From Ilumatobacter sp. (GTDB lineage: Bacteria; Actinomycetota; Acidimicrobiia; Acidimicrobiales; Ilumatobacteraceae), in NCBI GenBank assembly GCA_013002175.1, contig JABDKP010000004.1, positions 1-44,702 on the forward strand: a stretch of 44,702 bases of DNA, written 5' to 3'. How positions within the stretch are numbered: position 1 is the first letter of the stretch; each line of letters starts with the position of its first letter. Shown piece after piece: positions 3,904 through 35,059 of this stretch. Under the pieces are notes generated by a model. The model worked only from the letters and a program-made list of their open reading frames with translations. It did not search any database and was not told where the DNA came from. The translations under genes were made by a program, and so were the position numbers.

Positions 3904-4836
3904 CTATCGACGGGTCGCTCCGGCACGCGCCGCCAACCGGCTCGGAACGCCTGCGAGCCCCTGCAGCAGGGCGACCGCGTGGACCCGTCTCGGCCGATGC
4001 CGCAGGCGGCGCACCGACAGTGACAGCGCACGCGCCAACTCGCCCGCCGAGCCGTGCATCGCCGACGACCAGATCCGATTCCGCTCCTGGAGGCGCCTGA
4101 CGTCGTCGCCGAGCTGCGCGGTCGTCGCGCTGCCGACGTGCCACACCGTCGCCGCCGGAACGTGGCGGTAACGCCATCCCACCCGCCGACCGCGCCTGGC
4201 GAGTTCGACGTCCTCGTAGTACAGGAAGAAGCGCTCGTCGAAGAATCCGACGTCCGCGATGAAGTCGCGGTGCAGCATCACGGCACCACCGGTGAACGCC
4301 TCGATGTCTGCCGGCAAGCTGCCGACCTCGCCGAGCAACGCACCGCGGTGCCGGTCGGACCCCGCGCCGAAGCGGTCGATCACGACGCCGGCGCTGTTGA
4401 CGATCGGTGCCGCCGATGTGTCGCCGTCGCCGTCGAGCAGGGTCGGCTGGGCCGCGCCGACATCGGCGTCGGCGTCGAGCTCGGCGACCAACGGCGCCAG
4501 CCATCCCGGATCGATCGACACGTCGTCGTTGAGGAGCGCGACTGCATCCGCACCGGACTCGAGCGCGCGGCGGATCCCGGCATTCATCCCACCGGCGTAA
4601 CCGGCATTGCTCCCCGTCGACACCACCTCGGCCGCGACGCCGCGGAGCCGATCGGCGGCCGATGCGCCGTTGTCGATGACGACCAGCTCGACGGGGAACC
4701 CACCCGATCCGGTCCGATCGGCCAGCACCGACTGCACCGACCGCTCCAGGACGCCGGGAGGCGTGTCGAAGGCCAGCATCACCACCGACACCCGCTCGAT
4801 CGGTGCCCGCGTTCGTCGTGGCGCAGCCGCAGACAC
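3904..4836 (-). CDS. GT2-family glycosyltransferase (rhamnosyltransferase-like)
   Basis: A 310-residue GT-A enzyme of family GT2. Visible motifs are the N-terminal strand VSVVMLAFDTPP, the nucleotide-binding VELVVIDNGAS, the metal-binding ALLNDDVSID, and FDERFFLYYEDVELARRGRRVGW, the ED-x-E-L segment typical of rhamnosyl- and galactofuranosyl-transferase-like GT2s. It should add a sugar from a nucleotide donor to a growing glycan on the cytoplasmic face of the membrane. The GTG start at 4836 is chosen because TACACT sits 6 bases before it; longer in-frame starts (ATG 4881) would place the promoter inside the gene. It heads a two-gene leftward unit with the methyltransferase, and is divergent from the GT2-HAD gene. 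Confidence 0.88.
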   Translation of the reverse strand: MSAAAPRRTRAPIERVSVVMLAFDTPPGVLERSVQSVLADRTGSGGFPVELVVIDNGASAADRLRGVAAEVVSTGSNAGYAGGMNAGIRRALESGADAVALLNDDVSIDPGWLAPLVAELDADADVGAAQPTLLDGDGDTSAAPIVNSAGVVIDRFGAGSDRHRGALLGEVGSLPADIEAFTGGAVMLHRDFIADVGFFDERFFLYYEDVELARRGRRVGWRYRHVPAATVWHVGSATTAQLGDDVRRLQERNRIWSSAMHGSAGELARALSLSVRRLRHRPRRVHAVALLQGLAGVPSRLAARAGATRR

Positions 4837-4842
4837 AGACGG

Positions 4843-4848
4843 AGTGTA
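4843..4848 (-). promoter_or_regulatory. Putative -10 element, leaderless (leftward GT2 gene)
   Basis: TACACT on the minus strand lies 6 bases before GTG 4836. It decides the start of the GT2 gene. A second element for the divergent gene lies at 4914-4919. Confidence 0.6.
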
Positions 4849-4913
4849 CCGAGACCGCTCTCGGCCCGAGGTGCCGTCCATCGGACACCGTCTTGCCGGG
4901 GAGCGTGCGCCGA

Positions 4914-4919
4914 TACGGT
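4914..4919 (+). promoter_or_regulatory. Putative -10 element, leaderless (GT2-HAD gene)
   Basis: TACGGT lies 8 bases before ATG 4928. It pairs with the divergent element at 4843-4848. Confidence 0.5.
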
Positions 4920-4927
4920 TGCGCCCC

Positions 4928-7900
4928 ATGGCAAGAATCCCCGGAGCCGGGCTCGACGGGCCTCCCTTCGCACGGCGGGCGGCAGCCGTCGGGTCATCAC
5001 CACTCGTCTCGATCATCCTGGCCGTGTACGACCCCCCGATCGGGGCGCTCACCGAGCAGCTCGAAGCCATCGCGAATCAGTCCGACCCCCGTTGGGAGTG
5101 CATCGTGATCGACGACGCTGCGCCGTCGCCCGAGGTCAAGGCGGTCCTCGCGGCCTGGACCGCGGCCGACCTGCGCCGCTCGCTCGTCACACGCGACGGA
5201 AACGGCGGCATCGCAGCAGCGACCAACGACGGGCTGGAGCGGGCCACCGGCGAGTTCGTCACGATCTGCGACCACGACGACCTGATCGCCCCGGACGCAC
5301 TCGACCGGGTCGTGGCCCACTTCGACGACCATCCCGACCACGACCTCGCGTACAGCGACGAGGAGATGATCGACGACACCGGCTTCCTCGTGCACGAGTA
5401 CTGCAAGCCGGACTTCAGCCCGTGGCGGCTGCTCGGACAGAACTACTTCAGCCACCTGACCGTGATCCGTCGGGCGGCAATCGGCGACATCCGACTCCGG
5501 GCCGCGTTCGAGCCCGCCCAGGACTACGACTTCTTCCTGCGCGTGGTCGAGGGCATCACCGCGGCCGGTCGGGGCATCGGCCACATCCCCCGAAGCCTCT
5601 ACTCCTGGCGCGCGGTGGCGGGCTCGATCGCGCTCGACACCGGCGAGAAGCGGGGGGTGACCGAGGCCGTGCGACGGTGCGTCGAGTCCGCCCTCGAGCG
5701 CCGGGGCATCTCGGGCACGGTCGTGCCGGCGCCGAACAGCACGACCGCCATGCACCATCACTTCCCCGCGTCGAGCCGGCGCTCCGAGCTGATCGAGATC
5801 GGGCCGACGACGACAGCGGGCGAGGTCGCCGCTCGCGTCTCGGCGTCCACCGCCGACGTGGTCTGCCTCGCACCCGTCGCGCACAACATCGACGCCATGC
5901 CGACATGGCCTGTGCAACTCGTCGAGCTGCTCGACCGGCCGGACGTGGGCGCGGCCGGGCCGCGCCTGGCGAACGCGGACGGCGTGCTGCTGAGCGCCGG
6001 GCGGGCGGTCATGCCGACGCTGCACGATCCGTTTCGCGGGGCGGACGCGAGCCTCGCCGGCCCGTGGGACGCGTTCACGGTCACCCGTGAGGTCACCTCG
6101 CTCGCACCGCTCGGTCTCGCCCTCGATCGCGAGGCCGTCGCGGCCGTCGGAGGGATCGCCGACGACGTCGGGCTGGACGCGGCAGTGACCGAGTTGTGCG
6201 CTCGGCTGCGCGACGCCGGATATGCCACCCTCTACACGCCGACCGCGGAGTTGACGACCGATGCTGACGCCGTCCCGGACCCGCGTGACGACCGCCGGGT
6301 CGACGACGACATCTCGCGAGTCAGCGTGCGCGTCCCCCACATCCGCGACGAGCGATTCGCCCCGACCGGAACGGCACCGTTGGTCGGGTATGTGCCCGCC
6401 GCCGCCACGAAACTTCGACGATCGCTCGCATCGGGCACGGTCGAACTCGTCACATCCGACGTGTTCGACACGATCGTCGATCGCGACGTCTCGACACCCA
6501 GCGATGTGTTCCTCACCCTCGGCCGCACCCTGCGCGCCCGCGGGTGGTTCGACGATCACATCACGCCCGAACTGTTCGTCGAGATGCGGATCGACGCCGA
6601 GCATCGGGTACGGGCACGCCGGTCTGACGACGCCCGCGCGCGCCACGCCGACCTCGCACCCGCCGCGCTCGAGCGGATCGCCGACATCGCCGCGCCCGAG
6701 TGCTCGCTGGAGGAGATCTGGGCCGAGATGCCGGCCCTGCGCACCGATCCGGCACGCGCCGCCTCCGACGACGAGCTGATCGCAGCGGAGCTGGGCAACG
6801 AGGTCGAGCACCTGCGACTGATCGAGCCGACCATCGAGGCGCTGGGCGGCGCTGTCGACCGGGACGTGACCGTGCACCTCGTCAGCGACATCTACCTCAG
6901 TGCGGACCAGCTCCGCGAGCTGCTGCGCCAGGTCGGTGTCGACGAACGGCTGCTCGCCCACATCACGACCTCGGCCGACCACGGGATGGGCAAGGCCCAC
7001 GGGCTGCTTCGGCAGGTCTTCGACGCGCACGGCGTCGACACCGCAACCGCCGTGCACGTCGGCGACAACCCGATCGCAGACGTCGCGACAGCCGAGGAAC
7101 TGGGAGCCGTCGCGGTCGCGACGGATGTGCTGCCGATCGACCGCCACGTGCCGATGGTCGGAGAGGAGCTGGCCGCCAGATCGCGAGCGCTGGCCACCGA
7201 CGGCGGCATCCGCTCGACGATCCGGGCTGCGCTCGTCCAGGCGGGGTCGCCGGGCGTCGATCCTTCGTTCCAGTTCGGCGCGGCGATCGCCGGTCCGGCG
7301 ATGGCCGGGTTCGCGGCATGGGTGTCTGCGACGACCGAACAGCTGGGCGCCACGACGGTGCACTGCCTCCTGCGCGAAGGAGCGACGCTCGCCGACATGC
7401 TGGGGATCGTCGCTCCCGACGGACCGCGTCCGGTGCTGGTGCACGCCTCGCGCTGGGTGAACATGCGCGCCGCGGTGATCGAGGGCACACCGGACGAGTT
7501 GCTCACGGCGCTCGCTCGCAGGGCGCCGCTCACCCCTGACCACGTCGCGGCCTCCTTCGGGTGCGACGTCGACCGCGTCACAGCGTTGCTCGGTTCCAGC
7601 GAGGTGCCGCACTCGCACCTGGCCCAGGCGTGCCGGAAGCTCGCCGCCGACCACGATGTGCGCGCGTCGATCGTGGCGGCGTCTGCGGCGCTGCGCGGGC
7701 GGCTGGTCGACTACCTGCGGTCCGCGCTCGTCATCGACGACAGCCCGATCGTCGTCGCCGACGTCGGCTGGGGCGGCACGATCCAGGAAGGCCTCACCCG
7801 TGTCCTCCGGGCCGAGGGCGTCGACAACGACGTCGTCGGTCTGTACTTCGCCCTGTCGGCGCCGGGCGAGGCGCGGTTGCGGCGAGGGGCGCGGATGATG

Positions 7901-8968
7901 TCGTATCTCCCGAACGCCGTCGACCACAGCAAGCGCTCGCGGGTGAGCCGGGTCGTCTCCCACAACGCAGAGGTCATCGAGCGGATCCTGACCCCACAGC
8001 TCGGCACGCTCGTCGACATCGACGAGGGCGGACGGCCGGTCTGTCGTCCGGACGACGACGATCACATCCCGGCCACGCTCGAAAGCGCCCAGATCGGGAT
8101 GCACGACGTCGTGCGCCGTCTCGCGGCGCAGCCAGGCGGGGTGGACACCGCCTTCTTCGTCGACGATGCGCTCGTGCGCCATGCGCTCGGGGCAGCGATC
8201 GCCGACGTGATCGAGCGGCCGACCGAGGCGACCGCGCTCGCACTCGGCTCGTGGCCCCACGACGACGTCGCAGGCACGGCCCACCGGTCGATCACCGGCC
8301 ACGTCGCCACCGCCGTCCGGTTCGCGAACGCTCACGACATCGGCGTGGTCGACCCGAGCGAGACGGCATGGATCAGCGGCGTCGCCGCGGTCGCCAACCC
8401 GGTACTGGCCGCGCAGCTGTCCGCGTCGGCGCGTGGCGTACCGCCCCACGCACTGTGTCCCGCCGGCGAGAACGGGTGGTCCTCGCTGGCCGCCTTCCCA
8501 ATCGATTCCGAACTCGCCGAACTGCTCGACGAAGGACATGCCCGCACCGGCGCCCGCGGCTGGTCGGTGGCGCGCGTCAACGGCCCGGTGCAGTCGCTGC
8601 GAGCCGTGCAGTTCACCGCGGCCACCGAACCCGTGCTCGTCGACGTCGGGGCCTTCGAGATCATCGCCACCGACACGTCGGGCGTGCGGCACCGCCTGGA
8701 CGTGACCGACCTCACCGACCGGGCGCTGCGGTGGTCCGACGCCCGCCCGATCGACTCGCGGCGCTTCGCCACCGGCCCCGGCGGGCACGTCGTCGTGCCG
8801 ATCGACGCCGAGCTCGCCGGCCGAATCAGGCGAGTCGATGTCACGCTTGGCTTCCGCGTGTGGCCGCTCACACCTGACGGCCCGCTGATGCGGCCGCCGC
8901 TGTGGCATGCCGTCAACGACGTGACGCGGCGGGTCGGCGGCGCAGTTGCCAGGCGCCTCCGCTCCTGA
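4928..8968 (+). CDS. Giant GT2 glycosyltransferase / HAD-superfamily fusion protein
   Basis: This 1346-residue protein joins several modules. Residues about 25-260 are a GT2 domain (VSIILAVYDPP, ECIVIDDAA, ICDHDDLIAPDAL, AQDYDFFLR). Residues about 280-445 resemble a second GT2 half that has lost its metal site. A HAD domain follows, with nucleophile motif DVFDT at 511-515, LVSDIYLS, GMGKAHGLL and VGDN at 711-714. A further domain carries HCLLREGATL near 812 and VVADVGWGGTIQEG near 942, as in large HAD-containing glycan proteins where an FLSRDG-like motif occurs. The protein ends in a basic tail (VTRRVGGAVARRLRS). It may transfer a sugar and hydrolyse or transfer a phosphate on the same glycan; the substrate is unknown. 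It is convergent with the next gene. Confidence 0.87.
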   Translation: MARIPGAGLDGPPFARRAAAVGSSPLVSIILAVYDPPIGALTEQLEAIANQSDPRWECIVIDDAAPSPEVKAVLAAWTAADLRRSLVTRDGNGGIAAATNDGLERATGEFVTICDHDDLIAPDALDRVVAHFDDHPDHDLAYSDEEMIDDTGFLVHEYCKPDFSPWRLLGQNYFSHLTVIRRAAIGDIRLRAAFEPAQDYDFFLRVVEGITAAGRGIGHIPRSLYSWRAVAGSIALDTGEKRGVTEAVRRCVESALERRGISGTVVPAPNSTTAMHHHFPASSRRSELIEIGPTTTAGEVAARVSASTADVVCLAPVAHNIDAMPTWPVQLVELLDRPDVGAAGPRLANADGVLLSAGRAVMPTLHDPFRGADASLAGPWDAFTVTREVTSLAPLGLALDREAVAAVGGIADDVGLDAAVTELCARLRDAGYATLYTPTAELTTDADAVPDPRDDRRVDDDISRVSVRVPHIRDERFAPTGTAPLVGYVPAAATKLRRSLASGTVELVTSDVFDTIVDRDVSTPSDVFLTLGRTLRARGWFDDHITPELFVEMRIDAEHRVRARRSDDARARHADLAPAALERIADIAAPECSLEEIWAEMPALRTDPARAASDDELIAAELGNEVEHLRLIEPTIEALGGAVDRDVTVHLVSDIYLSADQLRELLRQVGVDERLLAHITTSADHGMGKAHGLLRQVFDAHGVDTATAVHVGDNPIADVATAEELGAVAVATDVLPIDRHVPMVGEELAARSRALATDGGIRSTIRAALVQAGSPGVDPSFQFGAAIAGPAMAGFAAWVSATTEQLGATTVHCLLREGATLADMLGIVAPDGPRPVLVHASRWVNMRAAVIEGTPDELLTALARRAPLTPDHVAASFGCDVDRVTALLGSSEVPHSHLAQACRKLAADHDVRASIVAASAALRGRLVDYLRSALVIDDSPIVVADVGWGGTIQEGLTRVLRAEGVDNDVVGLYFALSAPGEARLRRGARMMSYLPNAVDHSKRSRVSRVVSHNAEVIERILTPQLGTLVDIDEGGRPVCRPDDDDHIPATLESAQIGMHDVVRRLAAQPGGVDTAFFVDDALVRHALGAAIADVIERPTEATALALGSWPHDDVAGTAHRSITGHVATAVRFANAHDIGVVDPSETAWISGVAAVANPVLAAQLSASARGVPPHALCPAGENGWSSLAAFPIDSELAELLDEGHARTGARGWSVARVNGPVQSLRAVQFTAATEPVLVDVGAFEIIATDTSGVRHRLDVTDLTDRALRWSDARPIDSRRFATGPGGHVVVPIDAELAGRIRRVDVTLGFRVWPLTPDGPLMRPPLWHAVNDVTRRVGGAVARRLRS

Positions 8969-12862: not shown

Positions 12863-13159
12863 TCAGGCGTCTGCGTCCGCCGAGCCCACGACGCGCCGTT
12901 TCACGCGCCGAGCCAGTGACATCGGCGCCCACACCAACTTGCGCACACCGCGCCGGGCGATCTCCCCCTTGTTCGGTGCGGCGCGGAGATCCCGCGCGGC
13001 GCCGTGCACCAGCGCCCGCCGACTGATCGCGGGCGGGATGGCCGCGGCGAGCTCACGGAGCTCGGCGCTGCGCTGGTCGGAGGCCCGCTCCAGTGCGGCG
13101 AGCCGGGCGTCGATCGACGCGTCGACCGGTGCGTCGCCGGTGGCCGGTTCGGTGGACAT
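12863..13159 (-). CDS. Small helical protein with basic tail, unknown function
   Basis: The family is not recognised. The 98-residue product has an acidic N-terminus, a predicted coiled coil (DARLAALERASDQRSAELRELAAAI) and a basic C-terminus (GVRKLVWAPMSLARRVKRRVVG). The layout is like the 115-residue protein two genes downstream. The start is supported by TAGCAT 8 bases upstream, making it the first gene of the leftward glycosyltransferase unit. The nearly abutting next gene suggests co-expression. Confidence 0.7.
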   Translation of the reverse strand: MSTEPATGDAPVDASIDARLAALERASDQRSAELRELAAAIPPAISRRALVHGAARDLRAAPNKGEIARRGVRKLVWAPMSLARRVKRRVVGSADADA

Positions 13160-13167
13160 GGGCCCGG

Positions 13168-13173
13168 ATGCTA
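13168..13173 (-). promoter_or_regulatory. Putative -10 element, leaderless (leftward GT unit)
   Basis: TAGCAT on the minus strand lies 8 bases before ATG 13159. It is divergent from the ABC exporter promoter region. Confidence 0.55.
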
Positions 13174-13242
13174 CCGATCGGGCCGGGTCGCCGGACCGCC
13201 GGCCCTGCCGGCCCGATCGCTCGGAACCGGCCGGAGACTGGA

Positions 13243-13248
13243 TAACGT
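13243..13248 (+). promoter_or_regulatory. Putative -10 element (ABC exporter operon)
   Basis: TAACGT lies 10 bases before ATG 13259, which would give a 5' leader of only a few bases. Weaker than the other sites because the spacing is at the long end. Confidence 0.4.
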
Positions 13249-13258
13249 CGTGTGCCGC

Positions 13259-14056
13259 ATGTCGCTCCGGACGGCGGTGGCCCACCGCAACCTGCTCTAC
13301 CTCCTCTCGCTGAAGGAGTTGCGGACCCGCTATCGCAAGTCGCTCCTCGGCTGGGCGTGGAGCCTGCTGAACCCGATCAGCCAGATGATCATCTTCAGCA
13401 TCTTGTTCCTGAAGGTCTTCGGCGGCGTCCCGCCGAAAGGTGCGGCGAGCGGGCTGACCAACTTCCCCCTGTACTTCCTGGCCGGGTTGCTGCCGTTCCA
13501 GTTCTTCGCAGTCTCGGTCACCGCGTCGATCGGGTCGGTCCAGGGTGGCGCGAGCCTGATCAAGAAGGTTGCATTCCCGCACGAACATCTCGTGCTGTCG
13601 ATCGTGATCGCCCAGTTCGTCACCGTGTGCATCGAGCTGCTGGTGCTGTCGGTGACGTTCCTGCTGTTCGGACACTTCATGTTCCAGTGGCTGGTGCCGA
13701 TGGCGGTGCTGCTGGGCCTGATCGGTTTGTTCACGATCGGCGTGGCGCTCACACTGTCGGCCGCGAACGTCTTCTTCCACGACATCAACTACCTGTGGGG
13801 CATCGTGTCCCAGGTGTTGTTCTACTCGAGCCCGATCATCTTCGTGCCCGAGCAGATCCCCAGCCGTTCGGTGCGCGCGATCAGCAACTGGGGGCCGACC
13901 GGGAGCTTCGTCCGGGCGGCCCAGGAGATCCTGTACGACAACCGCATGCCGAGCCCCGAGCGATGGCTCCAGGTGTCGCTGTACGCGGGCGTCACCTTCG
14001 TCGCCGGTGCGTGGATCTTCAATCGTCTGTCGCCACGGTTCGCGGAGGAGATGTAG
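13259..14056 (+). CDS. wzm: Polysaccharide ABC transporter permease (Wzm/TagG type)
   Basis: A 265-residue ABC-2 family integral membrane protein. The N-terminal LSLKELRTRYRKSLLGWAWSLLNP is the hallmark of O-antigen/teichoic-acid exporters, followed by about six hydrophobic segments, for example MIIFSILFLKVF, FPLYFLAGLLPFQFF and LLGLIGLFTIGVALTLS. With the ATPase 3 bases downstream it should form the exporter that moves a lipid-linked glycan to the outer face of the cytoplasmic membrane. ATG 13259 is chosen; an in-frame GTG at 13250 would add three residues. Confidence 0.95.
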   Translation: MSLRTAVAHRNLLYLLSLKELRTRYRKSLLGWAWSLLNPISQMIIFSILFLKVFGGVPPKGAASGLTNFPLYFLAGLLPFQFFAVSVTASIGSVQGGASLIKKVAFPHEHLVLSIVIAQFVTVCIELLVLSVTFLLFGHFMFQWLVPMAVLLGLIGLFTIGVALTLSAANVFFHDINYLWGIVSQVLFYSSPIIFVPEQIPSRSVRAISNWGPTGSFVRAAQEILYDNRMPSPERWLQVSLYAGVTFVAGAWIFNRLSPRFAEEM

Positions 14057-15399: not shown

Positions 15400-17076
15400 G
15401 TGAGTGCAGATTCCGGGAGCCACCGGCTGCGAAGTCGCCTCCTGGAGATGACGATGCGCCACCATCGCCTCGCCACACCGACGCGCATCATCTTCGACCT
15501 GATCGCGTTCGAGACAGCCATCGCGGTTGCGATCTTCCTCCGCCTCGGCCTCACCCTGCAAGACGGGGGCGAGTTCAGGTTCTGGCAGATGGTGCCCATC
15601 ATCGCCGCACTCCAGCTGATCATGGGGGTCGCCTCCGGCCTCTATCGCGGCAAGTGGCGCTACGGATCCTCCAACGAAGTCGCGGCGCTGTGCGCGACGG
15701 CGGTGACGACGACGGCGGCGGTCTATCTCCTCAACGAGAACTCCTTCACCGTTCGACCGATTCCCCAGAGTTCGGTCCTCGTCGGCGGGGTGTTCGGTCT
15801 CGTGCTGATGGCGGGCATCCGGTTCGCCTGGCGCCTGCTCCTGGAGAACTTGCGGCCGAGCCTGAGCACCTCGAGAACTGCGTTCTTGGCCTTCTCCCCA
15901 CCGTCGATCGGTGAAGGGGAGATCGCGTCCGTGACGAAGTCTCTCGGATCCGACTGGATCACGACCGGACCGAAGACCCATGAGTTCGAAGTGGCGTTCG
16001 CCGAACGGGTCACGAGCCCCGCCGCACTGGCGGTCTCGTCGTGTACCGATGCGCTGCAAGTGGCGTTGGCGGCGCTCGGCATCGGGCCGGGCGACGCGGT
16101 GTTCACGACCACGATGACCTTCTGCTCGACGGTGCACGTGATCGAACACGTCAGCGCCACACCGATCCTCGTCGACATCGATCCGGAAACGCTCAACCTG
16201 TCCCCGATCGCCCTGCAACAGGCCATCGATGCAGTCACCGAAGCCGGCGAGCTCACACCGCGGTGCATCATGCCGGTCCACTATGCGGGCCACCCCTGTG
16301 ACATGGCGGCGATCGACGAGATCGCCGCTGCCCACGGGCTCGCGATCGTGGAAGATGCCGCCCATGCGCTGCCGGCGATCGTCGATGGCCGCACCATCGG
16401 TGACCCCTCCGGTCCGGACGGGTTGATCCGCGCCACCGCGTTCAGCTTCTACGCCACGAAGAACCTCACGACCGCAGAAGGCGGGATGCTCACCGGTCCC
16501 GCCGATCTGATCGAAGAAGCGCGGTTGTGGAGCCTCCACGGCATGAGCCGTGATGCGTGGAAACGGTACGGCAAGGGCGGCAGCTGGTATTACGAGGTGA
16601 TTCGCCCCGGTTTCAAGTGCAACATGACCGACCTGCAATCGTCGCTCGGACTGGTCCAGCTCGACCGACTCTCCGGATTCCAGACCCACCGCGACCAGAT
16701 CCTCGCCACGTATCGCGACGGGTTCTCCGATCTCGCCGCCCTCGAACTGCACCCGGAGCGACCGAACGTCACGAGCGCTCATCACCTCTATCCAGTCCGG
16801 TTGCATCACGGCCACCTCTCGATCGATCGGGCCCGGTTCATCGACGAGTTGGCGGAGCGGAACATCGGGGCGAGCGTCCACTTCATCCCGATTCACATCC
16901 ACCCGTACTACGCGGACAAGTACGGATACTCGGCGAGCGACTTCCCGGTCGCCCACCGCGAGTACGAACGGCTGCTGAGCTTGCCGCTGAACAACAAGAT
17001 GACGCTCGACGACGCCGCCGATGTCGTCACAGCAGTTCGAGACATCTGCGACACGTTCGCGCTCGCACGTGACTGA
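15400..17076 (+). CDS. Fusion of a WbpM/PglF-type membrane domain to a DegT-family aminotransferase
   Basis: The 558-residue product begins with about four membrane segments (near 28-50, 64-80, 93-111, 125-145) and the text LYRGKWRYGS and GIRFAWRLL, which belong to the N-terminal domain of WbpM/PglF/CapD-type nucleotide-sugar dehydratases. The dehydratase Rossmann domain expected next (GxxGxxG, TGA) is absent. From about residue 160 a DegT/DnrJ/EryC1/StrS aminotransferase begins exactly like a free-standing enzyme (FSPPSIGEGEI), with PLP aspartate D319 (IVEDAAH) and PLP lysine K354 (SFYATKNLTTAEGG). It should transaminate a keto-sugar nucleotide next to the membrane. Its stop is overlapped by the sugar transferase start, as in a PglF-PglE-PglC order. 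A deletion between two adjacent genes or an assembly error could explain the fusion. Confidence 0.88.
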   Translation: MSADSGSHRLRSRLLEMTMRHHRLATPTRIIFDLIAFETAIAVAIFLRLGLTLQDGGEFRFWQMVPIIAALQLIMGVASGLYRGKWRYGSSNEVAALCATAVTTTAAVYLLNENSFTVRPIPQSSVLVGGVFGLVLMAGIRFAWRLLLENLRPSLSTSRTAFLAFSPPSIGEGEIASVTKSLGSDWITTGPKTHEFEVAFAERVTSPAALAVSSCTDALQVALAALGIGPGDAVFTTTMTFCSTVHVIEHVSATPILVDIDPETLNLSPIALQQAIDAVTEAGELTPRCIMPVHYAGHPCDMAAIDEIAAAHGLAIVEDAAHALPAIVDGRTIGDPSGPDGLIRATAFSFYATKNLTTAEGGMLTGPADLIEEARLWSLHGMSRDAWKRYGKGGSWYYEVIRPGFKCNMTDLQSSLGLVQLDRLSGFQTHRDQILATYRDGFSDLAALELHPERPNVTSAHHLYPVRLHHGHLSIDRARFIDELAERNIGASVHFIPIHIHPYYADKYGYSASDFPVAHREYERLLSLPLNNKMTLDDAADVVTAVRDICDTFALARD

Positions 17077-17704
17077 CGCGGCGCTCGCCGACGTCGATTA
17101 CGTGGGCAAGCGCGCCTTCGATGCGGTGGTTGCCGGCGTCGGACTCCTGCTCCTCAGCCCGGTCCTGATCGGCACGGCGATTGCGGTCGGCCTGTCGTCG
17201 CCGGGTCCGATCCTGCACCGTGCACGACGGGTCGGCCGGAACGGCGAACCGATCACCGTCCACAAGTTCCGCTCGATGCGAACCGGTACGTCAGGCACCG
17301 CCGTCACCGCGGCGCGCGATCCGCGGGTCACCCCCGTCGGTCGCCTGATCCGACGATCGAAGATCGATGAACTCCCCCAGTTGCTCGATGTCGTCGTGGG
17401 CACGATGAGCATCGTCGGACCCCGGCCCGAGGACCCCCGCTACGTCGCCGGATACACACCGCACCAGGCTCGGATCCTGGCGTGGCGTCCGGGGATCACG
17501 TCGCCGGCCTCCATCGCCTACCGGCACGAGGAGGCGATGCTCGTTGCGGCTGACGACATCGGGATGGCATACGCAGAGATCAGCGCCGCCAAGATCGCAC
17601 TCGATCTCGAGTATTTCGAACGCTCCACGCTCGTCGGCGACATCCGGATCCTGCTGCGCACGTTCTCGGCGATCTTCTCGAGGCCCGCCGACTCGTTCGT
17701 CTAG
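17069..17704 (+). CDS. Undecaprenyl-phosphate sugar-1-phosphate transferase (PglC/WcaJ-type)
   Basis: A 211-residue monotopic phosphoglycosyl transferase that links a sugar-1-phosphate to undecaprenyl phosphate and so starts a lipid-linked glycan. Visible are KRAFDAVVAGVGLLLLSPVL (re-entrant membrane helix), HKFRSMR, SKIDELPQLLDVV, GTMSIVGPRPEDPRYV and RPGITSPASI. The length fits the small PglC-like class rather than the longer WbaP/WcaJ forms. GTG 17069 is chosen; it overlaps the upstream stop by 8 bases, which implies coupling to the aminotransferase fusion. A longer start at 17021 would overlap by 56 bases. Confidence 0.95.
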   Translation: MTDAALADVDYVGKRAFDAVVAGVGLLLLSPVLIGTAIAVGLSSPGPILHRARRVGRNGEPITVHKFRSMRTGTSGTAVTAARDPRVTPVGRLIRRSKIDELPQLLDVVVGTMSIVGPRPEDPRYVAGYTPHQARILAWRPGITSPASIAYRHEEAMLVAADDIGMAYAEISAAKIALDLEYFERSTLVGDIRILLRTFSAIFSRPADSFV

Positions 17705-19127: not shown

Positions 19128-20423
19128 GTGATCGTCGCTGTCGTCGGACTCGGAAAGATCGGCCTCCCGCTGGCGGTCCAGGCGGCCACGCGCGGCCTCA
19201 CCGCCATCGGCGCAGACATCTCCACCGACACGGTTGACCTCGTCAACCGCGGCGAGGAACCGTTTCCCGGCGAGACCGACCTCGGCACGAAACTGAAAGA
19301 CGTCGTCGACCGCGGCACACTTTCGGCAACATCGGACACCGCCGCAGCCGTCCGGGAGTCCGATGCCGTCATCGTCGTCGTCCCGCTGGTCGTCGACGCC
19401 GACGCCGACGCTGACTTCGGGGCGCTCGATGCGGCGACCGCTGACATCGGTCGCGGGCTCACCGCGGGGACGCTCGTCAGCTACGAGACGACCCTGCCGG
19501 TCGGAACCACACGCAACCGCTTCGTGCCGGCGCTCGAGGCCGCCTCGGGGCTGACCTGTGGCGAGGACTTCTTCGTCGTGTTCTCGCCCGAACGGGTGTA
19601 CTCGGGACGGATCTTCCGAGACCTCCGGCGATATCCGAAGCTGGTCGGAGGCGTCGATGCCGCGAGCACCGCACGCGGGATCGAGTTCTACGAGGCAATG
19701 TTGGAGTTCGACGAGCGCCCCGACCTGTCGACGCCGAACGGCGTGTGGGACATGGGCTCGGCCGAGGCGGCAGAGTTCGCCAAGCTGGCCGAGACGACCT
19801 ACCGCGACGTCAACATCGGCCTGGCGAACGAGTTCGCCCGCTTCGCCGACACGGCGGGGATCGATGTCGTGCGCGTGATCGAGGCGTCGAACAGCCAGCC
19901 GTTCAGCCACATCCATCAGCCCGGGATCGCCGTCGGCGGCCACTGCATTCCCGTCTATCCCCGCTTCTACCTCGCGAACCATCCCGACGCACGGGTCCCG
20001 GCGGCTGCTCGCACGGCAAACGCCGAGATGCCTGACTACGCCGTGTCACGCCTCGAGTCCGTGATCGGTTCGCTGAACGGCGAGAAGGTGGTCGTTCTCG
20101 GCGCGTGCTACCGAGGCGGCGTCAAGGAGACTGCCTTCTCCGGCGTGTTCGCCACCGTCGACGCATTGGCCGCTCGCGGGGCTCACCCGGTCGTTCACGA
20201 TCCACTCTTCTCCGACGACGAGCTTCGTGCCCTCGGCTTCGAACCGCACGAGCTCGGAACTGCGTGCGACGCCGCCGTGATCCAGGCGGACCATCCGGAA
20301 TACACGACCCTCACGCCCGCCGATCTGCCGGGCTGCCGCGCGATCCTCGATGGGCGCCGGTGTCTGTCCACGAGCCCCGAATTCGCGCTCGAGAGCATCC
20401 CCGTCGTCCTCCTCGGCGGGTGA
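19128..20423 (+). CDS. Nucleotide-sugar 6-dehydrogenase (UDP-GlcNAc/ManNAc dehydrogenase family)
   Basis: A 431-residue UDP-glucose/GDP-mannose dehydrogenase-family enzyme that oxidises the C6 hydroxyl of a UDP-sugar to a carboxylate using two NAD. The NAD site is VVGLGKIGLPLA at 5-16, FVVFSPERVYSG follows in the middle region, a catalytic lysine is likely K219 (EFAKLAETTYRDVNI) and the catalytic cysteine is C273 in GIAVGGHCIPVYP. The GGHC text places it with WecC/WbpA rather than UDP-glucose dehydrogenases. It would supply the uronic acid used by the diamino-sugar enzymes at 32372-35015. GTG start. Confidence 0.92.
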   Translation: MIVAVVGLGKIGLPLAVQAATRGLTAIGADISTDTVDLVNRGEEPFPGETDLGTKLKDVVDRGTLSATSDTAAAVRESDAVIVVVPLVVDADADADFGALDAATADIGRGLTAGTLVSYETTLPVGTTRNRFVPALEAASGLTCGEDFFVVFSPERVYSGRIFRDLRRYPKLVGGVDAASTARGIEFYEAMLEFDERPDLSTPNGVWDMGSAEAAEFAKLAETTYRDVNIGLANEFARFADTAGIDVVRVIEASNSQPFSHIHQPGIAVGGHCIPVYPRFYLANHPDARVPAAARTANAEMPDYAVSRLESVIGSLNGEKVVVLGACYRGGVKETAFSGVFATVDALAARGAHPVVHDPLFSDDELRALGFEPHELGTACDAAVIQADHPEYTTLTPADLPGCRAILDGRRCLSTSPEFALESIPVVLLGG

Positions 20424-20449
20424 TGCGGGTGAACCTGCGACGACGATGA
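20423..20449 (+). CDS. Eight-codon bridging ORF (MRVNLRRR)
   Basis: ATG overlaps the dehydrogenase stop (TGATG) and its TGA overlaps the next ATG (ATGA). It could carry terminating ribosomes from one gene to the next. An encoded functional peptide is not claimed; the arrangement could be chance. Confidence 0.3.
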   Translation: MRVNLRRR

Positions 20450-21144
20450 GCAACGAGGAACGTGATCGCCTGAGCGCCGTGTACGGCGAACTGCTCGGTG
20501 CTGACTCGGCGAAACGGTGGAGCCTGACGAACGCCGGAAATGACGCCATCCTGCGCCAGCGCGTCGAGCAGACGACTCGTTTCGTGGACGCCCAGTTCCT
20601 GCCTCGCTCCCCGGCGGTCCTCGATTTCGGATCCGGCGGCGAGACCACGCTCTGCCCCCGTCTCGGGGCCCGTACCGACGGCACGATCCGCCGCGTCGGG
20701 GTCGACATCCTGCTCGAGCGCCTCCGTGCCGCCTCCGGCGCCACCGCCAGTTCGCTGGTGTGCGCCGACGGCCAGTCGTTGCCATTCGAGAACGACACGT
20801 TCGACGTCGCTGCCGTCTTCACGGTCTTCTCGTCGATTCTCGATGGCGACGTGCGCCGGCGAATCGCGGCCGAACTGGTGCGGACGCTGAAACCCGGCGG
20901 TTTCGTCATCTGGTACGACCTGCGCTACCGCAACCCGGCCAACCGGAACCTCCAACCGTTGTCGCGCCGAGCGGTCGAGCGGCTCTTCCCGACGCTGACG
21001 CCCACGTGGACATCGACCACCGTGCTGCCCCCGCTGGCTCGACGGCTGACACCGCTCCACCGCCGGTGCTACGCGGTCGCATCGGCGCTGCCGATGCTGC
21101 GAAGTCATCTTCTCGGTACCCTCTCGAAGCCACAGACCGCCTGA
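20446..21144 (+). CDS. Class I SAM-dependent methyltransferase
   Basis: A 232-residue methyltransferase of the Methyltransf_11 type. The SAM motif is AVLDFGSGGETTL, followed by RVGVDILLERL, CADGQSLPFENDTFDVAAVFTVFSSI and LVRTLKPGGFVIWYDLRYRNPANRN. The DLRYRNP text and short C-terminal region resemble methyltransferases in glycan clusters. It probably methylates a sugar or lipid-linked intermediate in the cytoplasm. The start ATG lies 22 bases after the dehydrogenase stop and is bridged by an eight-codon ORF. Confidence 0.87.
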   Translation: MSNEERDRLSAVYGELLGADSAKRWSLTNAGNDAILRQRVEQTTRFVDAQFLPRSPAVLDFGSGGETTLCPRLGARTDGTIRRVGVDILLERLRAASGATASSLVCADGQSLPFENDTFDVAAVFTVFSSILDGDVRRRIAAELVRTLKPGGFVIWYDLRYRNPANRNLQPLSRRAVERLFPTLTPTWTSTTVLPPLARRLTPLHRRCYAVASALPMLRSHLLGTLSKPQTA

Positions 21145-21179
21145 GCGCGTCTCGACGCATCGTCACGAAAGGCGACCGG

Positions 21180-22328
21180 ATGACCTCCCGAGTTGACACC
21201 ACGATCTGTCGCCGCTGTGTGATGGACACCAGCGATCCAGACATCACCTTCGACGCCGATGGTGTGTGCTCGCACTGTCGCAAGTTCGACGACATCACCA
21301 GCAAGCAATGGTTTCCCGGGGAGGAAGGCGAGCAGCGGCTCAACACCATGCTCGACCAGATCCGTGCGGCGGGCACGGACCACGACTATGACGTCATCCT
21401 CGGTCTCAGCGGCGGACTGGACAGCTCGATTCTGGCGGTGCGGGCCAAGGACTGGAACCTGCGCGTGCTCGCGATTCACGTCGACGCGGGATGGAACACC
21501 GAACTCGCCGTCCACAACATCCAACGGATCGTGGAGTACTGCGACTTCGACCTCCACACCCATGTCGTCGACTGGGCCGACATGCGTGATCTGCATCTCG
21601 CGTACCTGCGGTCGGGGATCGCCAATCAGGATGTCCCCCAGGACCACGTGTTCTTCGCCAGCCTCTACGGACAGGCCGTCGAGCGCAAGATCAAGTACGT
21701 CCTGAACGGCGGCAACATCGCCACCGAATCGGTCTTCCCCGCGAACTGGCACGGTTCCGCGATGGACGCATGGAACCTGCGCGACATTCATCGCAAGTAC
21801 GGAACGACCGAGCTCAAGTCGTATCCCACGATGGGGTTCCTCCGCTACTACCTCACCATTCCCTACGTCCACCGGATCAAGGTGTTCCGCCCGTTGAACT
21901 TCATGCCGTACGACCGGGCTGCGGCGCTGACCGAACTCCAGGAACGCCTCGGCTACAAGGACTACGGGCTGAAGCACGGCGAGTCCCAGTTCACGAGGTT
22001 CTTCCAGAACTACTACCTGCCCACACGGTTCGGCTACGACAAGCGGCGGCCGCACCTGTCCAGCATGATCCTGAGCGGGCAGATCACGCGCGAGGAGGCC
22101 CTCGCCAGACTCGACGACGAGATGTACACCGCTGACCAACTCGAGCAGGACATCGCCTACTTCTCGAAGAAGCTACGCATCGGCCGCGACGAGTTCACCG
22201 ATCTGTTGCACGCGCCACTGCGCAGTCACCGGGACTTCCGCAACCAGGACAGCGCGTACCGCCGGCTCAAGCAGGTGCAGGGAATGATCGAGAAGATCAC
22301 TCGAAGGAACCTCGGCGCGTACGGCTGA
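21180..22328 (+). CDS. N-acetyl sugar amidotransferase, WbpG/PseA-like
   Basis: A 382-residue PP-loop ATP pyrophosphatase. Two zinc-type pairs (C10-x2-C13, C30-x2-C33) are followed by the PP-loop GLSGGLDSS at about 75-83 and by HVDAGWNTE. In P. aeruginosa O5, WbpG works with HisH2 and HisF2 to convert a 3-acetamido group of a uronic acid sugar into acetamidino, with ammonia coming from glutamine through HisH. Both partner genes follow on the opposite strand at 22355-23742. ATG 21180 has a good ribosome-binding site (GAAAGG) about 7 bases upstream, one of few such sites here. Confidence 0.93.
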   Translation: MTSRVDTTICRRCVMDTSDPDITFDADGVCSHCRKFDDITSKQWFPGEEGEQRLNTMLDQIRAAGTDHDYDVILGLSGGLDSSILAVRAKDWNLRVLAIHVDAGWNTELAVHNIQRIVEYCDFDLHTHVVDWADMRDLHLAYLRSGIANQDVPQDHVFFASLYGQAVERKIKYVLNGGNIATESVFPANWHGSAMDAWNLRDIHRKYGTTELKSYPTMGFLRYYLTIPYVHRIKVFRPLNFMPYDRAAALTELQERLGYKDYGLKHGESQFTRFFQNYYLPTRFGYDKRRPHLSSMILSGQITREEALARLDDEMYTADQLEQDIAYFSKKLRIGRDEFTDLLHAPLRSHRDFRNQDSAYRRLKQVQGMIEKITRRNLGAYG

Positions 22329-22348
22329 CGTCGCCGGCCCGGGCGACG
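22329..22348. terminator. GC hairpin between convergent wbpG-like and hisF-like genes
   Basis: CGTCGCC (22329-22335) pairs perfectly with GGCGACG (22342-22348) across a 6-base loop. There is no T-tract, so if it ends transcription it may do so in both directions or with Rho. Confidence 0.5.
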
Positions 22349-22354
22349 GCTGCA

Positions 22355-23122
22355 TCAGTTGGCATGGGTCAGACCGCCGAGTTCGTCATCGGTCGGGTAG
22401 GTGACGAGAACCGCACGGTGCCGACCCTGGAAGACGAACGTCGAACCGGCCGCCGCAGCGGCTGCACCACGACGCAGCGCCGCGTCGAAGTCGTCGACGG
22501 AGCCCGCGCCCCCCAGCGCGATGACCGGCACGTCCACCGCGTCCGCGATGTCTTCGACGAGTTCGAGGTCGTAGCCGGCCATCGAACCATCGCGGTCCAC
22601 GGACTGCACGATGATCTCGCCCGCGCCGAGCCGCGCGACGTTGATTGCGTGCTCGACGGGATCGAGCTTGTGCCGTACCTGCCCGCCCCGCGTCATGACC
22701 TCGCGGCGCCCGAATCGCCCCCGCTTGACATCGATACACACGACGATCGACGAGGTCGCGAACGTCGCGGCGGCGTGCGCGACGAACTCGGGGCGTTCCA
22801 CCGTGACGCTACAGAGCACGACCTTCTCGAAACCCAGGCCGAGCAACGTCCGGATCTCGTCGACGGTCTCGATGCCACCGCCGACCGCCAACGGCACGAA
22901 TGCCTCGGAGGCGATCTCCGCGAGCAGCTCGATGTCGGCAGGCGTCCGCAGCCGACCCGCATCGATGTCGAGCAACACCAGCTCGTCGACGCCCTTCTCG
23001 TTGAAGATCCGGACGATGTTGATGGGGTCACCGAGATAACGCGGGTCGGTGAACCCGGTCGACTTCACGAGTCCGCCGTCGCTCAGCAGCAGCACCGGGA
23101 TGACCCGTGGGCGAAATCGCAT
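22355..23122 (-). CDS. HisF-like subunit of the sugar amidotransferase
   Basis: A 255-residue (beta-alpha)8 protein of the HisA/HisF family. It lacks the first catalytic aspartate of histidine-pathway HisF: the RIIACLDVKDG text of HisF reads RVIPVLLLSDG here, with L12 at that position, while D176 in QSVDRDG is kept. The same change is known in the HisF2 proteins of WbpG clusters, so this is an LPS/glycan amidination partner and not the histidine enzyme. Its ATG overlaps the HisH-like stop by one base (TGATG), which implies coupling. Expected to form a glutaminase-driven complex with the HisH-like protein and the WbpG-like enzyme. Confidence 0.92.
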   Translation of the reverse strand: MRFRPRVIPVLLLSDGGLVKSTGFTDPRYLGDPINIVRIFNEKGVDELVLLDIDAGRLRTPADIELLAEIASEAFVPLAVGGGIETVDEIRTLLGLGFEKVVLCSVTVERPEFVAHAAATFATSSIVVCIDVKRGRFGRREVMTRGGQVRHKLDPVEHAINVARLGAGEIIVQSVDRDGSMAGYDLELVEDIADAVDVPVIALGGAGSVDDFDAALRRGAAAAAAGSTFVFQGRHRAVLVTYPTDDELGGLTHAN

Positions 23123-23742
23123 CAGGACACCTCGAACGCGTCGAACGACCGGAGCAGTGCCATGCCGAAGCGGTGGCTCTTCTCCGGATGGAACTGCGTG
23201 CCCAGCACGTTGTGGTGTCCCACCACCGCGGCGATCTCGATGCCGTAGTCGACCGTCCCGAGCAGGAAGTCGGCGGTCGTCTCGAACGCATAGCTGTGGG
23301 CGAAATAGAACCGTTGTGGCTCATCTGTCGGAGGCAACAGGGGATGTTCCTGGGTCGGTGTGACGAATCCCCACCCCATGAACGGAAGGCGGAACTGCGC
23401 CGGCAGCGACCCTCGCATCGAGCGGACACGGCCGGGAACCCATCCGAGCCCGCGGCGTTCGCCCTCCTCACTCGAGTCGGCCAACAACTCCATCCCGAGA
23501 CAGATGCCCAACAGCGGACGTCGCTCCTGGATCACCAGTTCCTCCAGCGCGGGGCGCATGCCACTCGCATCGAGGCGATCGACCGCGTCGTCGAAGGCCC
23601 CGACCCCAGGGAGAATGAAGCGGGCATGTCGTGCGAGCTCATCCGGATCGCTGACGAGTTCGGCGTCGATACCGAGCCTGCGGTGCATCGAAACGATCGA
23701 CCCGAGGTTGCCCACCCCGTAGTCGACTATCGCGGTGGACAC
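23122..23742 (-). CDS. HisH-like glutamine amidotransferase subunit
   Basis: A 206-residue class I glutamine amidotransferase. The nucleophile is C81 in GICLGMELL, and H185 and E187 in GTQFHPEKS complete the triad; IVDYGVGNLGSI at the N-terminus is typical. It would release ammonia from glutamine and channel it through the HisF-like partner to the WbpG-like enzyme. GTG 23742 gives the usual length and a 16-base overlap with the upstream glycosyltransferase; a longer ATG at 23775 is possible. It sits third in the leftward unit that begins at 26392. Confidence 0.93.
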   Translation of the reverse strand: MSTAIVDYGVGNLGSIVSMHRRLGIDAELVSDPDELARHARFILPGVGAFDDAVDRLDASGMRPALEELVIQERRPLLGICLGMELLADSSEEGERRGLGWVPGRVRSMRGSLPAQFRLPFMGWGFVTPTQEHPLLPPTDEPQRFYFAHSYAFETTADFLLGTVDYGIEIAAVVGHHNVLGTQFHPEKSHRFGMALLRSFDAFEVS

Positions 23743-24971
23743 GGCGCCTCGTCGCTCAGGAAGGTCGTCAACCACTGCGCGAACTGTTCATAGTTGGACG
23801 ACGCAGCATAGTGCCGGCGCCAGAACTCGATCCGGGCAACCGCCGGACCCGGGTCGTCGGCGACGACTGCGATCGCTTCGGCGATGCGGGCGGCATCGGG
23901 GTCGGGCGGCACCAGTCGACCGTTGCCGTCCGTGATGATCTCGGGTGTTCCACCGACCGCGGTGGCCACGACGGGAACGCCCGCACTGAGCGCCTCCATC
24001 ATCGAGACGGCGACGCCCTCCGAGCTGCTCGTGTTCAGCAGCACATCGACCGCGTGTGATTCGAAGTGCTCGGCGACGTCGGTGTTCGGGACCGCGCCGT
24101 GCAGCGTGAATCGCAGCGAGCCCCGGCCGGGCGACCGCGCCCCGGCGTGCGCCTCGCCGACCACCCGTTCCACCTCTGGACGGAGCGGCCCGTCGCCGAA
24201 GTGATCCCAGACGACGTTCCGGTCCTCGGCCAGACGAACGATCGCCTCGGCAGCCAACACCGGCCGCTTGACCGCGGTCAACGACGAACACGTGACCACG
24301 CGGACCGTCGAGTCAGCCGACGGCGAACTCGCAGGGAACGGTCTGGTGCCGAGGCGACGGACGTGCAGCCGGTCACGGTGCATCGGATACCGTTCGACGA
24401 GGTACGAGTGGCCCCGGTCGGAGACCGATGCGACGGCGCTGCAAGCTCGCAGCAGGGACTCGTGTTGCGGGATGTAGTTCCCGGGGTGCCGTTCGAGGAA
24501 CAGGTCGCCGCCGTGCACCCGGCTGACGATGGGAACCGACGGATCGGCTCGACGGATGCCGAGCACGGACTCGGTCAGCCAGTAGGAGTAGACCACCGAG
24601 GGCCGCCCGCTGCCGACCGCCGTCTCCCGGTACCACCTGGTGACGGCCGCGGCACCGCCGACGGACAGCAGCGCACGGGCGAGCTGACGGGGCCGGGCCA
24701 TCGTGCGCGCATGCAGCCGCATCTCCCGGGCCGCGAGTCGGACCGCCGGGAACGACAACAGTGATCGGAGACGCCGACCCCTCGTGAGGCGTGGGCACAA
24801 CGTCATGTCGACGTCGACGTTGTCAGGAAGATCGTTGCACTCGCCGGCCGGCGACGTCGGGGCGAGCGTGATCGTGTCGAACGCGTCCGCGAGCGCACCG
24901 ATTTCGTCTTCGAGGAAGTCGATCCGGTTGCCGAACGGGAACGACTGGGTGATGACCAGCAACCGAGTCAT
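23727..24971 (-). CDS. GT4-family glycosyltransferase
   Basis: A 414-residue GT-B enzyme of family GT4. The N-terminal domain starts RLLVITQSFPFGN and shows PIVSRVHGGDLF. The C-terminal domain has VVTCSSLTAVKRPVLAAEA, RFTLHGAVPNTDVAEHFE, LLNTSSSEGVAVSMMEALSAGVPVV and GGTPEIITDGNGRLV, the E-x7-E retaining-transferase motif. It probably adds a sugar with retention to the lipid-linked repeat unit in the cytoplasm. The start ATG overlaps the flippase stop (ATGA) and the end overlaps the hisH-like gene. Confidence 0.92.
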   Translation of the reverse strand: MTRLLVITQSFPFGNRIDFLEDEIGALADAFDTITLAPTSPAGECNDLPDNVDVDMTLCPRLTRGRRLRSLLSFPAVRLAAREMRLHARTMARPRQLARALLSVGGAAAVTRWYRETAVGSGRPSVVYSYWLTESVLGIRRADPSVPIVSRVHGGDLFLERHPGNYIPQHESLLRACSAVASVSDRGHSYLVERYPMHRDRLHVRRLGTRPFPASSPSADSTVRVVTCSSLTAVKRPVLAAEAIVRLAEDRNVVWDHFGDGPLRPEVERVVGEAHAGARSPGRGSLRFTLHGAVPNTDVAEHFESHAVDVLLNTSSSEGVAVSMMEALSAGVPVVATAVGGTPEIITDGNGRLVPPDPDAARIAEAIAVVADDPGPAVARIEFWRRHYAASSNYEQFAQWLTTFLSDEAPCPPR

Positions 24972-32371: not shown

Positions 32372-33337
32372 TCAAGACGACACGGTCATCGCGGCGACGA
32401 TCGACGTCGCCACCCGGACCGCGCGCGTCGCTGCTTCTCCCGTGACCCGCGGTCGGCCGCCGTCACGGACCGCCGCCAGAAAGTCCGCGAGTTCGAGTGC
32501 GAGCGGTTCTCCGCGATTCTCGATGAACGGAATCTCGATCATGTTCGATTGGCGGTAGCTCACGCCGTGGTCGCCGAGGAACTCGTGATGCGCCATCCGA
32601 TGAATCGTGATGTCGGCGCGGACGAGATCCGCAGTCACGACGCTGTCCCCCTGCGTCACCTCGATCGATCGGATCTTCTGTTGCCCGAGTCGGCTCGTCG
32701 CCAGCGCGGCGGTCACACCGTTGTCGAACGTCATCGTCGCATTTGCGATGTCCTCGGACGTGCTTCGGATCGCGCGTCCGACACCGGCGACCGAGGTGAC
32801 CGAGGCCCCCTCACCGGCGAGAGCGCACACGATGTCGATGTCGTGGATCATGAGGTCGAAGACCACGCCATCGCTGATTCGCGAGGAGTACGGGCCGATT
32901 CGTGCAGCGGCGATGTGGATCGGTGACTCGACGAGGTTCGACAACTCCACGATTGCCGGGTTGAAGCGTTCGATGTGGCCGACCGCCAGCACGACACCCG
33001 CTTCGGCGGCCGCCTGGGTGATCTCCTCGGCCTCGGCGACCGTCGCTGCGAGCGGCTTCTCGACCAGCAGATGAATGCCCCGGCGGATCAGCGCCGTCGC
33101 GGTTTCGACATGTCCCGACGTGGGCACGGCCACGACCGCTGCGTCGATGTCGTCGGGGAGCTCGTCGATCGAGCGACAGCAGAAGATCGCAGGGTCCGAC
33201 GCGGCGGCTCGGGCGCGTTCGAGATCGGCGTCGACCACAGCCGCCAGCTCGGCGCCAGCGGTTCGTTTCAGGACGCGCACGTGGTTCGCGCCCATCACGC
33301 CGGTCCCGACGACGACGATCCGTAGCGGATCACTCAT
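32372..33337 (-). CDS. Gfo/Idh/MocA oxidoreductase (WlbA/WbpB-like)
   Basis: A 321-residue NAD-dependent oxidoreductase. The Rossmann motif is VVVGTGVMGANHVRVL, EKPLA is at 93-97 and VGHIERFNPA and DLMIHDIDIV carry the expected catalytic histidine. WlbA/WbpB oxidises C3 of UDP-N-acetylglucosaminuronic acid to the 3-keto sugar, using 2-oxoglutarate to recycle NAD. The neighbours (aminotransferase and acetyltransferase, each overlapping by 4 bases) make this assignment likely. The donor would be made by the dehydrogenase encoded at 19128. Confidence 0.9.
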   Translation of the reverse strand: MSDPLRIVVVGTGVMGANHVRVLKRTAGAELAAVVDADLERARAAASDPAIFCCRSIDELPDDIDAAVVAVPTSGHVETATALIRRGIHLLVEKPLAATVAEAEEITQAAAEAGVVLAVGHIERFNPAIVELSNLVESPIHIAAARIGPYSSRISDGVVFDLMIHDIDIVCALAGEGASVTSVAGVGRAIRSTSEDIANATMTFDNGVTAALATSRLGQQKIRSIEVTQGDSVVTADLVRADITIHRMAHHEFLGDHGVSYRQSNMIEIPFIENRGEPLALELADFLAAVRDGGRPRVTGEAATRAVRVATSIVAAMTVSS

Positions 33338-35015: not shown

Positions 35016-35059
35016 CGCGACGATCCGACGGTTCCTCCGGGGGATGGGGCCGAGTACGA

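Follow-up and report, generated by a model that had tools for sequence, protein, structure and literature searches.

The stretch of Ilumatobacter sp. DNA analyzed here (44,702 nucleotides; hereafter the window) belongs to a contig of a metagenome-assembled genome (MAG) and carries, at 15400-17076 on the forward strand, a gene in which parts of two otherwise separate enzymes are joined in one frame. According to the list of open reading frames and its translation, the intact frame encodes 558 amino acids from a GTG start (alternative ATG starts lie at 15448 and 15454), and the protein opens with a four-helix membrane module of the PglF/WbpM type, which a short linker connects to a complete DegT aminotransferase that retains its lysine K354. 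The in-frame fusion proposed in a preliminary description of this DNA was thus confirmed by an uninterrupted frame and by homology found for both parts. The domains themselves are known; their combination does not occur elsewhere in the matches listed for the searched genomes. We consider it reasonably probable that the product is a membrane-tethered aminotransferase of the UDP-4-keto-6-deoxy-GlcNAc type, fused by rearrangement of a divergent PglF/DegT gene pair with domain loss. With the PglF anchor, the DegT enzyme, which is normally soluble, is probably kept at the membrane and close to its partner transferase.

The membrane module comprises residues 1-152 (15400-15855, forward strand), as delimited by identity to PglF N-termini, AlphaFold2 helices, and lysine/arginine counts. 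Residues from about 21 to 152 share 48-57% identity (53, 57, 51, and 48%, depending on the alignment) with the PglF N-terminus of one member of the same family, G589, and 46-53% (50, 53, 47, and 46%) with that of another, G576, and the similarity stops near residue 152-155. The LYRGKWRYGS and RPIPQSSVLVGG stretches and the hydrophobic helices are retained in the alignment, near PglF's own, in agreement with the earlier description of four membrane segments bearing WbpM/PglF-type sequence. When the N-terminal part (residues 1-166) was modeled with AlphaFold2 together with eight relatives, a check proposed in the preliminary description, four helices were predicted with a mean pLDDT of 80 (residues 25-49, 57-79, 91-114, and 123-151, encoded at about 15472-15546, 15568-15636, 15670-15741, and 15766-15852 on the forward strand). 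In the full-length model, for which the aligned rows covered the DegT part only, the DegT part was mostly well predicted and the transmembrane (TM) part was of low confidence, with block means of 35-62 over residues 1-160. Lysine and arginine residues number five at the N-terminus, three in the loop that joins helix 2 to helix 3, and two at the C-terminal end, the other two loops holding zero and one; from this distribution, we infer that both ends of the module lie inside and that the DegT domain is cytoplasmic.

Pfam gave zero matches for residues 1-165 at E up to 1. A fold search of the PDB with the isolated TM model gave nothing significant (best E 0.67), and a search of the PDB with the TM sequence gave no useful match either; since no solved structure was matched in either way, the identity of this part rests on its sequence similarity to PglF. 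As regards membership in the PglF/WbpM proteins, the four-helix N-terminal module is present, and CoA_binding_3 (PF13727) and Polysacc_synt_2 (PF02719) are absent; neither of these profiles nor PF02397 matched the fusion protein at E up to 1, which corroborates the earlier statement that the dehydratase domain is missing.

The DegT/DnrJ/EryC1/StrS aminotransferase domain, classified as Spr1654/WbgX/ArnB-like from PF01041, orthologue identity, and Foldseek, occupies 15874-17076 on the forward strand, including the stop codon. PF01041 matches residues 169-547 over profile positions 2-360 of 360 (E 1.1e-106). K354, the PLP lysine (codon at 16459-16461, forward strand), and D319 are invariant in 25 of 25 aligned rows, and K354, D319, and E360 align with Lys199, Asp170, and Glu205, named as active-site residues of Spr1654 in PMC5936713. 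The lysine is intact, as had been noted, and His196 of Spr1654 is replaced by Y351 at the aligned position. Spr1654 is also the best fold match (Foldseek E 1.9e-40), with ArnB next (1.8e-39), while in the sequence search ArnB entries come ahead of Spr1654 (E 5.1e-70 vs 1.2e-65). Scores for the NCBIfam models of PseC (332.7 bits, cut-off 423.5) and ArnB (PRK11658; 321.8 bits, cut-off 631) lie below the cut-offs, so no named equivalog is reached. By similarity alone the domain could belong with either Spr1654 or ArnB, and it is closer to Spr1654/WbgX/ArnB than to PglE. The label PglE, used in the preliminary description, had to be given up: 1o61 and 4ztc, which we take to be C. jejuni PglE structures, matched with E 1.6e-20 and 9.3e-20, compared with 1.8e-65 for Spr1654, and both sequence and fold searches place the domain with Spr1654 and ArnB.

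The two parts of the protein have not changed at the same pace. Identity to the counterparts in G589 and G576 is 57 and 53% for the TM part and 65 and 67% for the DegT domain, compared with 76% between G589 and G576 for each part; the TM part has thus diverged faster than the DegT part, as expected of a module freed from some constraint.

The fusion point is a linker of about six residues (153-158, PSLSTS; 15856-15873, forward strand), positioned by aligning the protein with PglF and DegT from genomes where they are encoded separately; the transition is indeed short, but the earlier estimate of about 10 residues is corrected by the extent of the PglF similarity. The junction lies directly after helix 4, where the window reads RFAWRLLLENLRP and PglF reads RYVWRLVLEWLRRP in the alignment. 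In G589 and G576, DegT starts with V-R-D-T-F-L-P-F, and the window continues S158-R-T-A-F-L-A-F (S-RTAFLAFSPP vs V-RDTFLPFSPP), which indicates that homology begins at DegT codon 2; at the position of the DegT GTG start the window has TCG (15871-15873), and the domain's own start codon is gone. A 15-nt imperfect inverted repeat flanking the junction (15743-15757 and 15903-15917) is taken for chance.

In both G589 and G576, the orthologous DegT and a full PglF are encoded by separate, full-length, divergent neighboring genes, with 117 and 88 bp, respectively, between start codons chosen by eye, and the G589 PglF is a 618-codon frame with CoA_binding_3 and Polysacc_synt_2 (Pfam). A third divergent PglF/DegT pair occurs in G1142 with a less similar DegT (32%), and within the order the two genes run in the same direction in G041 and are fused in G039, with DegTs merely 27-29% identical. 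Because PglF and DegT are divergent in the two nearest relatives, a simple deletion cannot yield the fusion, and the in-frame deletion within a co-directional PglF-PglE-PglC operon suggested in the preliminary description was rejected. Rearrangement of the divergent pair, perhaps one that inverted the 5' portion of the PglF gene, would fit better than plain deletion, and the PglF nucleotide-binding and dehydratase domains would have been lost in its course. The preliminary description also held that the fusion would be refuted if close relatives always carried the two genes separate and full length. Such separateness is found in the two nearest relatives; it does not prove a chimera, but marks the fusion as rare and derived and is compatible with an artefact.

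The gene neighborhood bears on function. The fusion gene is followed by a gene for a small phosphoglycosyl transferase (Bac_transf, PF02397, E 6.4e-51; 17069-17704, forward strand); the 8-base overlap described earlier holds if this gene starts at GTG 17069, but becomes 56 bases with ATG 17021, the first start in the list of open reading frames. A Wzt-type ABC transporter ATPase with a C-terminal domain (PF00005, PF14524; 14060-15307, forward strand) lies 92 bp upstream of the fusion, preceded by an ABC permease (13259-14056, forward strand, start chosen by eye within the frame 13004-14056) that, judged by its context, is probably Wzm-like; similar frames adjoin Wzt-like genes in two other loci (L097 and L173). 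Among 80 related DegT loci (L091-L170), 53 contain a transferase match and 11 a strong match to the PglF catalytic part, both counts being lower bounds, as the flanks extend at most about 4 kb and are often cut by a contig end. All 15 loci from L091 to L105 contain the transferase: in 12 of them its start is no more than 100 bp downstream of the DegT match, whereas it slightly overlaps DegT in L105 and lies about 1 kb away in L093 and L096.

From this neighborhood, the fusion and the transferase are read as the last two steps of a pathway in which the aminotransferase would be anchored next to the enzyme that follows it. The cytoplasmic DegT domain, with PLP on K354, would convert a UDP-4-keto-6-deoxy-GlcNAc-type sugar to its 4-amino form (UDP-AATGal/FucNAc4N-like), and the four-helix module would hold it near the adjacent phosphoglycosyl transferase, to which the product may be handed over. 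According to PMC13063421, E. coli equipped with a dehydratase (C. jejuni PglF), an aminotransferase (WcfR), and a transferase (WcfS) converts UDP-GlcNAc to lipid-linked AATGal; the likely native dehydratase gene is placed outside the operon there.

Other parts of the window also contain sugar-related genes. In two regions (19128-23775 and 32372-35183), a nucleotide-sugar dehydrogenase and an amidotransferase of the WbuX type exceed their NCBIfam cut-offs, whereas an acetyltransferase, a second DegT, and a protein resembling Gfo-type UDP-GlcNAc 3-dehydrogenases stay below theirs; genes that look by eye like HisF and HisH are also present. This set, which resembles the P. aeruginosa O5 O-antigen set, suggests that this actinobacterium makes a putative uronic acid of the amidino or diacetamido kind. 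A 1453-codon frame (4607-8968) has a family 2 glycosyltransferase-like start and, by eye, an apparent HAD-like continuation. The other DegT (about 33334-34450, reverse strand), in a 626-codon frame, was considered as a second fusion and rejected, its upstream extension being arginine/serine-rich and, by eye, not membrane-like.

Profile and sequence searches detected no PglF-type dehydratase in the recovered assembly (89% complete). PF13727, present in 8 of 14 control genomes, had 0 matches in this genome. PF02719 had five, of 26-61 bits and all above the broad cut-off of 20.2, compared with 341 bits for the G589 PglF; by eye, these five frames read as RmlB-like, GalE-like, and other epimerase/reductase-like. 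The part of the G589 PglF downstream of the TM module gave two matches (E 5.4e-5 and 7.1e-5). The expected substrate is thus without a visible source in the recovered assembly, and the gene for the first step may have escaped recovery with the rest of the missing genome or may be lost, or the substrate may come from another enzyme.

The whole protein was searched in 60 genomes, and residues 21-235 were searched in 397 genomes of the order, 221 of the family, 395 of the class, and 396 of the phylum, each set including the source genome; judged by handle numbers, these overlapping sets amount to about 1,200 distinct genomes. Up to seven candidates per genome were scored in the order, class, and phylum searches, a depth at which strongly diverged fusions could escape. 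Of the matches listed from these genomes, none spans the junction except that of the window itself, and the same architecture, which the preliminary description had suggested seeking in related genomes, did not recur. A genome-contig scan likewise revealed no fusion in the 80 loci retained out of 296 confirmed relatives; the two rows reaching TM residues correspond to separate genes (L101, residues 40-549) and to a 406-codon DegT frame (L150, residues 61-548). Among 135 DegT frames in 183 loci, some places being present twice, 21 have an in-frame extension of at least 90 residues, and seven of these have at least two hydrophobic stretches: the window twice (L001 and L023), L117-L120, and L053. 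The 81 distinct frames recognized by a TM profile consist of 65 with TM and PglF catalytic parts, one that also has DegT, 10 cut by a sequence end, and five others (the window, L200, L101, L116, and L096). The literature searched, whose coverage mostly excludes subscription journals, yielded, in the titles and abstract openings listed, no membrane-tethered DegT aminotransferase of such a build.

Related ARRANGEMENTS are of four kinds. In G039 (L053, 2639-5626), a 996-codon frame combines 4TM, CoA_binding_3, Polysacc_synt_2, and DegT, and a transferase gene follows; as in the window, a PglF membrane part and a DegT share one frame with a transferase next to it, but G039 keeps the dehydratase, and its DegT is merely 27% identical. 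Four records from Phycisphaerae join a family 2 glycosyltransferase (GT2), two hydrophobic segments, and DegT in one frame (L117 2774-5161 and L119 2888-5161 by Pfam; L118 1251-3587 and L120 756-2999 by eye). Their DegTs are 43-44% identical to that of the window and are likewise joined to predicted membrane segments, but these segments follow the glycosyltransferase; no PglC-kind transferase lies beside them within the flanks examined. In the Chloroflexota locus L101, a DegT (58% identical) and a transferase are directly followed by a stand-alone PglF-type four-helix gene (5768-6319; 166-183 codons) without dehydratase, which is 68% identical to the TM part of a full PglF elsewhere in the same genome. 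A match occurs in 36 of 150 genomes around L101, its own included. The 16 recognized frames from other genomes, a count outside which weaker or shorter frames (such as those of 140 and 153 codons) fall, contain no second lone 4TM gene: 14 have a dehydratase part, and two (L234 and L235) have the order transferase-4TM-CoA-binding. These two and L116 form the fourth kind (L116 1485-3077, L234 1120-2631, L235 1066-2655), in which a transferase, 4TM, and a CoA-binding region stand in reversed order compared with WbaP-type proteins. A 267-codon frame near a contig end (L200, 1534-2334) has 4TM and CoA_binding_3 and no dehydratase.

As these four arrangements demonstrate, recombination affects DegT enzymes as well as the membrane module. 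Only L101 resembles the window in that the module is kept while the remainder of PglF is absent, and it may be a remnant; two of the four, which count against the proposed reading, use different helices (Phycisphaerae) or a distant DegT (G039). A broader and rather doubtful idea is that the four helices of PglF act as a movable platform on which the complex of the initiating phosphoglycosyl transferase docks, independent of the nucleotide-sensing DUF. If so, the module would recruit a dehydratase, an aminotransferase, or, when free-standing (L101), the complex itself, and the window fusion would be the module alone bearing a different catalytic class.

In favor of a tethered aminotransferase, both halves are homologous to one neighboring gene pair in G589 and G576, the cut is in frame, after helix 4 and at DegT codon 2, the four predicted helices and the active-site residues are retained, and in L117-L120 broadly similar DegTs are joined to predicted membrane segments. 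Against it count the dehydratase not found, the faster change of the TM part, the single MAG contig that constitutes the evidence, and the fact that no other junction-crossing match is listed. This last point and the state of the MAG (191 contigs, completeness 89.2%, contamination 3.0%) would also fit an assembler having joined the start of PglF to DegT in an organism with separate full-length genes. We regard such a chimera as unlikely: the join is in frame and at domain borders with the DegT start codon replaced, the PglF catalytic part was undetected on other contigs, and, the genes being divergent in the nearest relatives, skipping a stretch would not by itself bring them into one direction. 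No second copy of the junction occurs among 40 scored of 229 candidates in the assembly; outside the window, the scored matches are stretches of up to about 45 bases, and none covers query positions 522-747, where the junction lies.

The rearrangement could also be real and non-adaptive, the DegT still working or the pathway dying, with the membrane part a tolerated passenger. The dehydratase undetected in the assembly and the faster evolution of the TM part are in keeping with such a scar, and the lone 4TM gene of L101, given its identity to the PglF of its own genome, could be a similar remnant. The intact 558-codon frame, the conserved active-site residues, and coding-like GC3 in both parts (0.87 and 0.83 on either side of the junction) count against it, as do the retained hydrophobic helices and conserved stretches, and we find this explanation improbable as well. 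RmlB is ordinary in rhamnose synthesis, and a frame that looks by eye like RmlB lies on another contig (C128). That the tethered enzyme aminates its product, dTDP-4-keto-6-deoxyglucose, is nevertheless very improbable, as the closest orthologues adjoin PglF and a transferase, and the substrate proposed for Spr1654, the best fold match, is UDP-4-keto-6-deoxy-GlcNAc (PMC5936713).

Three known systems can be compared with the proposed tethered aminotransferase. PLP sugar aminotransferases are usually seen as soluble, and we know of no membrane part in the WcfR/WbgX/Spr1654 group, which otherwise resembles the fusion in sequence and fold and shares with it the active-site lysine, aspartate, and glutamate and a neighboring phosphoglycosyl transferase; the fusion DegT is 44.5% identical to a DegT of an S. 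sonnei plasmid, which we take to be WbgX. For Spr1654, PMC5936713 reports a homodimeric state in solution. The PglF/WbpM/CapD-type 4,6-dehydratases have the same four-helix module, at the identity given above for the two nearest relatives, but continue with CoA_binding_3 and Polysacc_synt_2, whereas in the fusion a different enzyme follows the helices. The large phosphoglycosyl transferases WbaP and WcaJ carry the same kind of 4TM module ahead of a glycan enzyme, but combine 4TM, DUF, and Bac_transf in one chain, whereas the fusion bears an aminotransferase, has no DUF (CoA-binding), and leaves the transferase as a separate small protein. PMC10942596, on the structure of WbaP, describes the relation between the N-termini of WbaP and PglF and calls the N-terminal domains common to PglF-like dehydratases and large phosphoglycosyl transferases "puzzling". 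A third enzyme class with the four helices and without the DUF separates the two domains, so that whether the helices serve as anchor, as docking element, or for nothing becomes directly testable; beside these three systems, the fusion suggests that PLP sugar aminotransferases can join the membrane assembly line.
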